Source: an uncultured Pelagibacteraceae bacterium
Lineage (GTDB): Bacteria > Pseudomonadota > Alphaproteobacteria > Pelagibacterales > Pelagibacteraceae
Direction: 5' to 3'
NCBI GenBank assembly: GCA_913050185.1
Contig: CAJXBA010000002.1
Location: 1-64,000, forward strand
DNA: 64,000 nt
Shown: in pieces, positions 22,874 to 30,962 of the stretch
How positions within the stretch are numbered: the stretch's first letter is position 1
How the letters are laid out: each line of letters starts with the position of its first letter
Translations under genes and position numbers: made by a program
Notes under the pieces: model-generated
Seen by the model: the letters and a program-made list of their open reading frames with translations, nothing else
Database searches by the model: none
Told to the model about the DNA's origin: nothing

Positions 22874-24592
22874 ATGAATTTAAATGAATTTAAAAGCTTA
22901 GTAGATTTATTTTTTTATCAGGCTAAAAAACAAAATCCTCAAATTGCTTTCTTGGAATGGCTTAATCCTAAAAACAACAAAAAGTTCAGTTGGGGCGAAA
23001 CATCATCAAATATTTATAAGTTAGCAAAAACTTTGAAAGAAAACATTGCGAGTGACGATAGATGCCTTTTAGTTTCTGAAAATAGACCAGAGTGGATGAT
23101 TTCCGATATTGCGGTAATGCTAGCGGGTGGAATTACGGTACCTGCGTATACAACCTATACCGAAAAAGATTATAAATACATAATTGAAGATTGCCGACCT
23201 TCTGTAATCATTGTTTCAAATAACGAGATGCATGACAAGTTAAAAAATATAATCGAGGAAAAATCTTTTGTAAGAAAAGTAATTACTTTCGATGAAATCC
23301 AAAAAGAAGATTATAAAGATAAATATTTAGATTTTAATTCTATAATTAAAAACGATTTACAAGAAAATGATAAAATAAAAAATTTAAATTTAAAAAGAAG
23401 TTCTCCAGCCTGCATAATATATACATCCGGAACGGGCGGAAACCCCAAAGGGGTCATTTTAAGTCATGGAGGCATATTAAATAATTTGGAGGGAGCTTGT
23501 GAAATATTAAAACCATTAATTGACAAGAGGCCAATTTTTTTAACCTGGCTTCCTCTATCACATTCTTATGAGCACACAGTCCAGTTTGCGCAAATTGCAG
23601 TTGGTGCAAAAGTTTTTTACGCAGAAAAAATAGAAAAACTTTTAGATAATATTTCAGAAGCCAAACCAACTATTATGACTGCAGTTCCACGATTTTATCA
23701 AAATCTTTATAACAAAATAAACATGAATATGAAAAAAGCGAAAGGATTTAAGAAAAAATTAATTAAAGCAACAATCGATTTAGGAAAAAAAGAGCTATTA
23801 AAACAAAAAATGAATTTTCCAGAAAGACTTATGAATTCAGTGGTAAACACTTTGGTTAGAAAAAAAGTAAAAAAACAGTTTGGTGGAAATTTAAAAGCTT
23901 TTGTATCAGGGGGTGGTGCTCTGGATAAAGAAATAGGAGAATTTTTAAATGCCATAGGATTACCCACTTTGCAAGGATATGGTTTGACCGAAACTTCTCC
24001 AGTGGTTAGCTGTAATCCAATTCATAAAATTAGGGTAGAAACCGTAGGACCACCATTTAAAGGAAATGAAGTTAAAATTGCTGAAGATGGAGAAATTTTG
24101 GTTAAGGGAGAGAATGTAATGTTAGGTTATTGGAATAAAAAAGAAGACACCGCAAAAGTTATTAAAGATGGTTGGTTATATACGGGAGATATTGGAGAAA
24201 TAGATCCTAGAGACGGTTACTTAAAAATAACGGATAGAAAAAAAGATATAATTGTCAGCGCAGGGGGAGATAATATTTCTCCAGCTAAAATTGAAAATCA
24301 ACTATCAAATTCTCCAGAAATAGACCAGTGTTTGGTATACGGAGAAGGAAAAAAATATTTGGTTGCGCTAATCGTCCCAAGTAAAGAATTCAAAGAACAA
24401 AAAGAAAAAATAAACGAAATAATAAATGAAATAAATAAAAATTTAACTTTAGTTGAAAAAATAAAAAAATTTCATTTAATTAATGAAAACTTTTCAATTG
24501 AAAATGGATTGTTGACACCAACAATGAAAGTAAAAAGAAACAAAGTAACTCTAAAATACAAAAATATTTTAGAAAATTTCTATAAAAAATAA
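22874..24592 (+). CDS. Long-chain acyl-CoA synthetase (AMP-forming)
   Basis: IIYTSGTGGNPKGVILSH, GYGLTETSPV, GWLYTGDIGEID. Confidence 0.93.
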   Translation: MNLNEFKSLVDLFFYQAKKQNPQIAFLEWLNPKNNKKFSWGETSSNIYKLAKTLKENIASDDRCLLVSENRPEWMISDIAVMLAGGITVPAYTTYTEKDYKYIIEDCRPSVIIVSNNEMHDKLKNIIEEKSFVRKVITFDEIQKEDYKDKYLDFNSIIKNDLQENDKIKNLNLKRSSPACIIYTSGTGGNPKGVILSHGGILNNLEGACEILKPLIDKRPIFLTWLPLSHSYEHTVQFAQIAVGAKVFYAEKIEKLLDNISEAKPTIMTAVPRFYQNLYNKINMNMKKAKGFKKKLIKATIDLGKKELLKQKMNFPERLMNSVVNTLVRKKVKKQFGGNLKAFVSGGGALDKEIGEFLNAIGLPTLQGYGLTETSPVVSCNPIHKIRVETVGPPFKGNEVKIAEDGEILVKGENVMLGYWNKKEDTAKVIKDGWLYTGDIGEIDPRDGYLKITDRKKDIIVSAGGDNISPAKIENQLSNSPEIDQCLVYGEGKKYLVALIVPSKEFKEQKEKINEIINEINKNLTLVEKIKKFHLINENFSIENGLLTPTMKVKRNKVTLKYKNILENFYKK

Positions 24593-24800
24593 TATAGGTA
24601 ACAGCATCTCAAACAATAAAATGATTAAATAAGTAACGTTATTACTTGTTTATTTTAATAATAAAAAAATTAAATTAATTTATTTTAAATTTGCCAACAT
24701 AATTAATGTTTGACATCAGTAAAAAAAAACATAAAGTTTAAAACAACAAACGAATCACTTAATGATTTGTTTAAATTAAAATATAAAGGGAGTTGAAAAA

Positions 24801-24860
24801 ATGGCTAAACGTAGAAAAAAAGCAAAAAAGAAGAAGAAAGCTAAAAAAAGAAGAAGATAA
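24801..24860 (+). CDS. Polybasic 19 aa microprotein MAKRRKKAKKKKKAKKRRR (not in ORF track)
   Basis: ATG with AAAGGGAG RBS about 8 nt upstream, TAA stop, strong terminator 12 nt later. Confidence 0.75.
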   Translation: MAKRRKKAKKKKKAKKRRR

Positions 24861-24872
24861 GCTTTTTTGTTA

Positions 24873-24903
24873 AAAACGCCCTCCAAAAGAGGGCGTTTTT
24901 TAT
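24873..24903 (+). terminator. Intrinsic terminator, likely bidirectional
   Basis: AAAAACGCCCTC-CAAAA-GAGGGCGTTTTTT; A-run and T-run on either side. Confidence 0.92.
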
Positions 24904-24916
24904 TGACTTTTATTTA

Positions 24917-25561
24917 TTAAGTGAGCTTTTCTGCACGTCTTAAAGCTTTATCCATCTTTTGTTGAGCTTTATGTCCGAGAACTACCTCAATTTCACTTTT
25001 TAATCTATTGTATGCTTTTTCAAAAAGTTGTCTTTCACTATAAGATTGTTCTGCAATCTCGTCTGTTTTATTATTTAAGTCTCTTACTACTTCTGCCAAC
25101 TCATAAATCTTTCCCGAGTTGATTTTTTGTTCATATTCTTGAGCTCTTCTACTCCACATAGTTTTTTTTATTTTTGGCTTATTTTTTAAAATATTGATTG
25201 TTTTATTGATTTGGTTGATACTGGAAATGGGTCTCAAAAACGATTGCTGATTTAAAGGTATACTTAACGTAAGTTTTTCTTTTTCTATAAAAATCTTGTA
25301 AAAATTTATGTCTATATCACCTATTTTAGCTTTTTCAACAGCAACGATTTTTCCAACACCGTGTTTTGGATACACAATATAGTCTTTAATATTATAAATT
25401 TTTTTTTCACTAGGTTGTTTTTTTATTTTTTTGATCTTAATTTTTTCTCCATTTGGCTTAAAGTTACTTGGATCAATCTTTTTTTTTAATTCTTTTTTTC
25501 CTTGTTTTTTCTTTAGGATTTTCTTTGATTTTTTCTTTCTTCCTCTTTTCTTTTTTCTCAT
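24917..25561 (-). CDS. carD: CarD family transcriptional regulator
   Basis: YNIKDYIVYPKHGVGKIVAVEK...FYKIFIEKEKLTLSIPL; very basic N-terminus. Confidence 0.92.
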   Translation of the reverse strand: MRKKKRGRKKKSKKILKKKQGKKELKKKIDPSNFKPNGEKIKIKKIKKQPSEKKIYNIKDYIVYPKHGVGKIVAVEKAKIGDIDINFYKIFIEKEKLTLSIPLNQQSFLRPISSINQINKTINILKNKPKIKKTMWSRRAQEYEQKINSGKIYELAEVVRDLNNKTDEIAEQSYSERQLFEKAYNRLKSEIEVVLGHKAQQKMDKALRRAEKLT

Positions 25562-29003: not shown

Positions 29004-30962
29004 ATGAACAAGCAAATTTGGAAGATTAAAAAAGAAGAAATGAAAGAAACTAATTTGTTTTTGTATTCTAATTTTATCAAGAAAAATTTTAATATTGATA
29101 TAGGCGACAACTATAACAAGCTCTGGAAGTGGTCAATTAATAATCCAAAAATTTTTTGGAAATCTATTTGGAATTTTACAAAGGTTAAGGGCAATTTAGG
29201 AAATATTTTGCTTCAAGAATCGGATGCTTTTTACAAGACTAGATTTTTTCCTGATACTGAACTTAATTATGCAGAAAATTTACTGGCAAAAAATAATTTG
29301 GAAACAGCCATAATATTTAGAAGTGAAAATGGATTCAAAACAATCATTTCTTGGAGGAATTTAAATTTAAATGTTCAAAAAATTTCAAATTGGATGAAAT
29401 CTAACGGAATAAAAAAAGGAGATCGCATAGCTGCATATTTACCAAATATACCAGAAACTGTAATCGCTTATCTTAGCACTTCAACCATAGGGTCCATATG
29501 GTCCTCATGCTCGCCAGATTTCGGTGCAGATGGAGCTATAAGTAGATTCTCTCAGATTGGACCAAAAATATTATTTATTGGGGATAAATATTTTTATGAC
29601 GGTAAAATAATCAATATTTTGGATAGATTACCAGAAATTCTTAGCAAAGTATCCTCGATTAACAAAGTTGTAATAGTTCCTTATCCTGGCACAGAGTGTG
29701 AAAAAAAAAATAATATTAAAAAAGCTACATATAATTGGAATGAATTAATAAATTTAACAAATAAAAATAAAATTCAATATAAAATGCTAAGTTTCAATGA
29801 TCCTTTGGCTATTCTTTACTCAAGCGGCACAACTGGAAAGCCTAAATGTATTTGTCATGGAACTGGAGGAGTATTGTTACAACATAATAAAGAATTGCAA
29901 TTACATTGTGATGTTAAAGAAAATGACCGTATATTTTATTTTACTACCTGCGGGTGGATGATGTGGAATTGGTTGGTAGGTTCGCTTGCATCAGGAGCAT
30001 CAATTGTATTGTTTGATGGTTTTCCATTATATAAAAAAAAAGATTTATTATTTGAGATTGTAAGTGAAGAGCAAATTACGCTTTTAGGTGTTAGTGCAAA
30101 ATATATTGATACTCTCAAAAATAATAAAGTTATTCCAAAAGATAATTACGATTTTCCAAAATTAAGAACCATTTGTTCAACGGGTTCTCCTCTGTCTGAT
30201 GATGGATTTAGATATATTTATAAAAACATTAAAGATGATGTTCATTTAGCCTCTATTTCGGGAGGAACTGATATTGTATCATGTTTTGTTTTGGGAAACT
30301 TATTTCAACCAGTCAATGCTGGAGAAATTCAAAACAGAGGATTGGGTATGGACGTAGATGTGTTTGATGAAAAAGGCTTTTCTATAAAAAATAAAAAAGG
30401 AGAATTAGTTTGCAAGAGGCCTTTTCCTTCTATGCCAGTTAAGTTTTGGAATGATGATGGTGATAGTAAATACAAATCTTCATATTTTGAAAAGTATAAT
30501 AATGTTTGGCACCATGGTGATTTTGCAAAAGTGACAGATAATGGAGGATTTATAATATACGGTAGATCTGATACTACACTTAACCCAGGGGGTGTTAGGC
30601 TAGGAACCGCAGAAATATACGATGTAGTTGAAAAATTTAGAGAGATAAAGGAATCAATTGTTGTCGGACAATCATGGAAAAATGATATAAGAATAATTTT
30701 GTTCATTGTTCTAAATACAGGTTATAAATTAAATATTGAAATAAAAGAAAAAATTAAAAATGCAATTAGATCTAAAACTTCACCAAAACATGTACCTTCG
30801 AAGATTGTATCAGTTTTAGACATTCCTAAAACAAAAAATGGAAAACTTATGGAATTAGCTGTTAAAAAAACTGTCGAAGGAGAAGCAATAAAAAATTTGG
30901 AAAGTTTAGCTAATCCAAATAGTTTAGAACAATTTAAAAATATTAAAGAATTAAGTGAATAA
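29004..30962 (+). CDS. Acetoacetyl-CoA synthetase-like AMP-forming ligase
   Basis: ILYSSGTTGKPKCICHGTGG, FFTTCGWMMWNWLVGSLASGA, ISGGTDIVSCFV. Confidence 0.92.
   Translation: MNKQIWKIKKEEMKETNLFLYSNFIKKNFNIDIGDNYNKLWKWSINNPKIFWKSIWNFTKVKGNLGNILLQESDAFYKTRFFPDTELNYAENLLAKNNLETAIIFRSENGFKTIISWRNLNLNVQKISNWMKSNGIKKGDRIAAYLPNIPETVIAYLSTSTIGSIWSSCSPDFGADGAISRFSQIGPKILFIGDKYFYDGKIINILDRLPEILSKVSSINKVVIVPYPGTECEKKNNIKKATYNWNELINLTNKNKIQYKMLSFNDPLAILYSSGTTGKPKCICHGTGGVLLQHNKELQLHCDVKENDRIFYFTTCGWMMWNWLVGSLASGASIVLFDGFPLYKKKDLLFEIVSEEQITLLGVSAKYIDTLKNNKVIPKDNYDFPKLRTICSTGSPLSDDGFRYIYKNIKDDVHLASISGGTDIVSCFVLGNLFQPVNAGEIQNRGLGMDVDVFDEKGFSIKNKKGELVCKRPFPSMPVKFWNDDGDSKYKSSYFEKYNNVWHHGDFAKVTDNGGFIIYGRSDTTLNPGGVRLGTAEIYDVVEKFREIKESIVVGQSWKNDIRIILFIVLNTGYKLNIEIKEKIKNAIRSKTSPKHVPSKIVSVLDIPKTKNGKLMELAVKKTVEGEAIKNLESLANPNSLEQFKNIKELSE

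Follow-up and report, generated by a model that had tools for sequence, protein, structure and literature searches.

Bacterial proteins that resemble the tail of histone H1 bind DNA (PMC2848022, PMC9239181) and vary in length by means of Lys-rich repeats, and Hc2, one of their number, is 165–237 aa long (PMC2848022). Hc1 carries a conserved N-terminal dimerisation domain (PMC2848022), and in AlgP and PhaF tails of KPAA repeats are borne on a helical N-terminal domain, the H1-like protein AlgP being located on polyP granules (PMC9239181). Judged from sequence, these H1-like proteins (Hc1, Hc2, BpH1 and the tails of AlgP) are the nearest kinds to a family of very short SAR11 peptides, one of which is encoded by the 19-aa ORF analysed here. 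Like Hc2 (hctB) and BpH1, the SAR11 family is Lys/Ala-rich and polycationic, with the number of repeats setting the length; unlike Hc2, its members are 19–99 aa long, are more densely charged (57–86% K/R in the family of the window), come from free-living bacteria and have no demonstrated sequence domain in common with it. A Lys-rich tail is also the likeness to Hc1 (hctA), of which DNA condensation is a feature, and the longer forms found in the sister family, with their Lys/Ala/Pro repeats, resemble the H1-like C-terminal domains of AlgP and PhaF. In contrast to AlgP and PhaF, the tail makes up nearly the whole SAR11 protein, and searches of the genus found no polyP kinases. Hc1 and AlgP have a separate N-terminal domain, folded or helical, to which nothing here corresponds, the tail being basic from residue 2 in own-family members and preceded in the sister family only by about eight residues (MEELKVIF). 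The family thus has the marks of the H1-tail type, namely a Lys/Ala(/Pro)-rich, low-complexity polycation and repeat-driven variation in length; what speaks against this assignment is that the known H1-like proteins are larger and that Hc1 and AlgP possess the N-terminal domain absent here.

Profile searches against Pfam and NCBIfam returned no family over cut-off at E-values up to 10, low-complexity chains being poorly served by profiles, and a search of phage DNA gave no match. No paper naming the gene was found in the portions of the literature covered; short ORFs in SAR11 intergenic regions are reported in one intergenic screen (PMC6429828), and the gene may be listed in the supplements of this and a further screen (PMC2704228).

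The window, by which is meant the whole 64-kb stretch of DNA analysed, belongs to a genome of 1.24 Mb; among named organisms, the nearest relatives of its CarD are Pelagibacteraceae (SAR11). The features surrounding the peptide gene are collected in Table 1. The ORF encodes 10 Lys and 5 Arg, 15 of its 19 residues thus being basic, and the rest are Met1 and three Ala, with no Pro; the first-pass annotation had counted 16 basic residues and two Ala, which a recount corrected.

Table 1. Features of the peptide gene and its surroundings, in window coordinates
Feature	Position	Strand	Evidence
Long-chain acyl-CoA synthetase-like gene, upstream	22874..24592	+	ORF; tblastn synteny
Conserved AACATTGTTATTRCTWGTTT-like block between acyl-CoA synthetase stop and promoter	24631..24652	+	Genus alignment
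Promoter TTGACA-16-TAAAGT	24710..24737	+	TTGACA 24710-24715; -10-like TAAAGT 24732-24737
Predicted 5'-UTR hairpin with invariant CGAATC arm	24748..24772	+	Predicted fold, z -1.9
Shine-Dalgarno sequence AAAGGGAG	24785..24792	+	8 nt ahead of ATG
19-aa ORF MAKRRKKAKKKKKAKKRRR	24801..24860	+	Sequence; syntenic ORF conservation; synonymous fraction 0.74 vs 0.23 expected
Bidirectional intrinsic terminator, common to peptide gene and convergent carD	24872..24900	.	Stem 11 nt past stop
carD, convergent neighbour, with Lys-rich N-terminal tail	24917..25561	-	Pfam CarD_C 5e-20, CarD_TRCF_RID 1e-10

The slot 3' of carD was read in 51 Pelagibacteraceae genomes, with CarD as the anchor. A convergent ORF beginning MAK or MPK, of 19–58 aa and 57–86% K/R, was found in 50 of the 51, with an RBS ahead of it and a hairpin behind it. 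In the exception (G006; L070 231-88 (-)) the ORF and its leader are present and a change in the length of an A run, which may be real slippage or an assembly error, makes the ORF overrun the usual stop and reach 47 aa. All 17 readable genomes of the sister family have in this slot a protein of 40–99 aa (MEELKVIFAKAKKKAKKKAAPKKKKKAAKRKPAKKKK...) containing AAPKKKKKAA and AKRKPAKKK repeats, which in composition and style of repeat is plainly like the C-terminal tail of histone H1. A strict RBS-plus-start pattern matched in 61 of 147 genomes, once in each except G030, which gave two matches and has carD twice on its contig; the reversed control of this pattern gave 0 matches. The slot held no comparable gene in 20 carD 3' regions from other alphaproteobacterial orders and in Rhodobacteraceae loci, and a class-level protein search with an 85-aa homologue, run without a positive control, gave no match. 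The first-pass annotation had predicted that relatives would retain the terminator and lose the ORF if the gene were spurious. The opposite was seen, the ORF, the RBS and the TTGAC box persisting in two families, and on this comparative evidence the peptide gene is genuine and conserved across SAR11.

That the ORF arose by chance in an A-rich intergenic region was considered, since Lys codons arise from poly-A tracts. The ORF is the sole example in the window of an ATG ORF of 15–60 aa with at least 60% K/R, and no such ORF was obtained in 200 simulated windows (first-order Markov). Together with the conservation in two families and the pattern of codon changes described below, these empty simulations rule out a chance origin, whose remaining probability we regard as negligible.

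Between close relatives with peptides of equal length (26 pairs), 65 codon differences were synonymous and 23 non-synonymous, that is, 74% synonymous against the 23% expected of neutral point mutation; close pairs are phylogenetically non-independent, so these figures are to be read as an effect size and not as a p-value. Exchanges between Lys and Arg accounted for 17 of the 26 residue replacements in these pairs. AAG made up 26–32% of Lys codons, compared with 13% in the genes of the window, and A runs are broken up thereby. Arg codons in the family of the window were AGA or CGT, with 0 AGG, and Ala codons mostly GCT, a bias that exceeds the one seen in this genome's ribosomal protein region; slippage in AGA repeats may contribute to this uniformity. 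Purifying selection is thus shown at the codon level, and it acts on the class of residue rather than on order or length.

Across members the length ranges five-fold, from 19 to 99 aa, with AAPKKKKKAA and AKRKPAKKK as the repeat units of the sister family. The family of the window itself contains intermediates, a 58-aa form with AKKPAKRKVAKKKPAAKK in one genus and forms of 31–38 aa, and together with the sister-family proteins these show the 19-mer to be no oddity but the lower extreme of a graded series; it is the shortest in a polycation family of variable length. Lys stands at about 50% in both families although lengths run from 19 to 99, the full composition being K 50%, A 25%, R 9% and P 7% in the sister family and K 50%, R 27% and A 14% in the family of the window. 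The only invariant columns of the alignment are Met1 and a few Lys.

This pattern bears on the proposal that the product is a ribosome-associated basic peptide filling a crevice in rRNA. Some ribosomal peptides, eL41 and bTHX among them, are just as small and basic, and the size, charge and strong RBS of the 19-mer would fit a peptide of the bTHX, bS22/mS38 or eL41 kind. Those peptides have fixed length and register and specific anchor residues, whereas the SAR11 series expands five-fold through repeats and keeps neither aromatic nor other anchors; the gene does not lie in a ribosomal operon, and a 60-aa homologue found no match in a PDB sequence search. A ribosomal role is accordingly judged unlikely, though it is the strongest of the competing readings. 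With the charge class kept and length tolerated, electrostatic binding fits better than a fixed-register ribosomal peptide.

The expression signals claimed in the first-pass annotation, a good RBS, an upstream TTGACA box and a hairpin terminator just past the stop, were all located (Table 1). A GGAG lies ahead of the start codon in all 82 family members and a GGGAG in 79 of them, the TTGAC box occurs in 75 of 75 complete leaders, and GTTTGACAT of the promoter region is exact in 13 of the 14 sequences of the genus alignment. The leader contains CGAATC, invariant in the same 75 leaders at 37–63 nt 5' of the start and nearly always within a predicted hairpin. Exchange of G-C and G-U pairs in the stem among homologues points to RNA pairing and not to a DNA palindrome. 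In genera g7, g9 and g12 the stem shows compensatory changes, with a covariation score reached by 1 of 500 shuffles and 98% of cells paired, against at most 48% when the stem was slid. In the genome of the window CGAATC-N3-8-GATTYG has a single match, at the peptide gene, and the leader is therefore specific to this gene and not part of a regulon. Sister-family leaders have a second hairpin, in which CCTC and CCC pair with the ribosome site GGGGGGAG; it shows one compensatory change, C-G to G-C, and its score, reached by 48 of 500 shuffles, is statistically weak. The two structures, the CGAATC leader hairpin, conserved in both families, and the sister-family RBS hairpin, form a possible new cis-regulatory RNA. 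As a separate observation, in g7 and g9 leaders (L035, L036, L042, L047 and L050) a CTCC lying 3' of the hairpin is a potential pairing partner of the ribosome-binding site (GGGAGGAACGGAG).

The CGAATC hairpin is better conserved than the middle of the peptide, which would suit a different reading. Here the RNA itself, a small regulatory RNA with hairpin leader and terminator, would be the functional product, and the ORF would be either incidental or the coding part of a regulatory leader. This reading does not explain the strong synonymous excess or the conserved ORF and RBS. Searches of Rfam gave only sub-threshold matches, nearly all on the terminator, and a known RNA family was dropped. 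No same-strand gene follows closely that could be attenuated, since carD is convergent and the next long gene in this direction begins only at 29004; a role as attenuator, or as leader peptide of a gene further on, was ruled out accordingly. We consider an RNA product improbable, and prefer a translated peptide gene.

The terminator stem is the sole terminator-like site in 24000-25500 (0.2 expected), and a hairpin is found at the same place in all members of the genus alignment. Its position between convergent genes, with an A tract before the stem and a T tract after it, means that it can also serve carD. The description of the locus as a stand-alone gene unit therefore holds for its promoter, leader and RBS, which are its own, and not for its terminator, which it has in common with carD. 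The one sister-family locus examined has two terminators on the peptide strand, the first directly past the peptide stop and the second further on. Upstream, the acyl-CoA synthetase is a constant neighbour in the family of the window and was not found upstream of the peptide gene in the sister family by tblastn synteny; the conserved block that follows it perhaps marks the end of the upstream transcript.

The N-terminus of the neighbouring CarD (25561-25430 (-)) is itself a Lys-rich, H1-like tail; genera with short peptides have a short tail, and those with longer peptides a long one. The CarD open frame and peptide length, taken as genus medians, gave a Spearman coefficient of 0.78 across 15 genera (0.76 for the family of the window alone), statistics that ignore kinship. 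A Lys-rich CarD tail occurs also in three other alphaproteobacterial lineages, in which the peptide is absent from the slot. A link between the CarD tail and the peptide is no more than suggestive.

Taken together, the separately transcribed gene probably encodes a free-standing polycation whose action resembles that of the C-terminal tail of histone H1 on its own, with the chromosome as its most likely target and RNA as a possible one. An unstructured, length-tolerant chain of Lys and Arg, with or without Ala and Pro, would neutralise and bridge the phosphates of nucleic acid; on the chromosome it would help to compact the nucleoid beside HU/IHF, and it could also bind RNA. Proteins of the HU/IHF family were found, so that a partner in the nucleoid is available. 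The earlier proposal of a candidate nucleic-acid-binding microprotein is strengthened by the longer, H1-tail-like homologues. We infer translation of the ORF from its conservation, and we further infer that the peptide is highly expressed, binds nucleic acid and acts mainly on DNA; with a charge of about +15 it would bind RNA and membranes as well.

Polyphosphate had been offered as another target, and the location of the H1-like AlgP on polyP granules (PMC9239181) would suit a peptide that binds or organises polyP. Neither ppk1 (PF02503) nor ppk2 (PF03976) gave a match in 23 genus genomes, of which 1 is at least 90% complete, whereas the positive controls did; this target is accordingly disfavoured and a polyP role very unlikely. 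A further idea is that of an exported cationic antimicrobial or cell-penetrating peptide, as Arg/Lys-rich peptides penetrate membranes. The absence of a signal sequence, the conserved position next to carD in a lineage of streamlined genomes and the resemblance of the longer homologues to H1 tails all argue against export, and we give it slightly less credence still. The H1-tail-like polycation is thus retained as the preferred reading. A wider proposal, that naked H1-tail proteins down to 19 residues occur throughout the SAR11 order, that the structured leader tunes their synthesis, perhaps through binding by the peptide itself, and that they may act with CarD, is advanced tentatively and is more doubtful.

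SAR11 bacteria, whose genomes are very streamlined, are among the most numerous cells of the ocean, and a tiny gene has been retained across two of their families despite this streamlining. With 19–25 codons it is too short for the usual annotation cut-offs, and nothing of the peptide is left by trypsin; short length and trypsin-sensitive charge are thus reasons why it could easily be missed. The series from 19 to 99 residues constitutes a natural length titration of polycation length against nucleic-acid compaction. If the peptide binds the chromosome, it would rank with the smallest known chromatin-like proteins that are genetically encoded, and would reveal how short a piece of H1 tail suffices.
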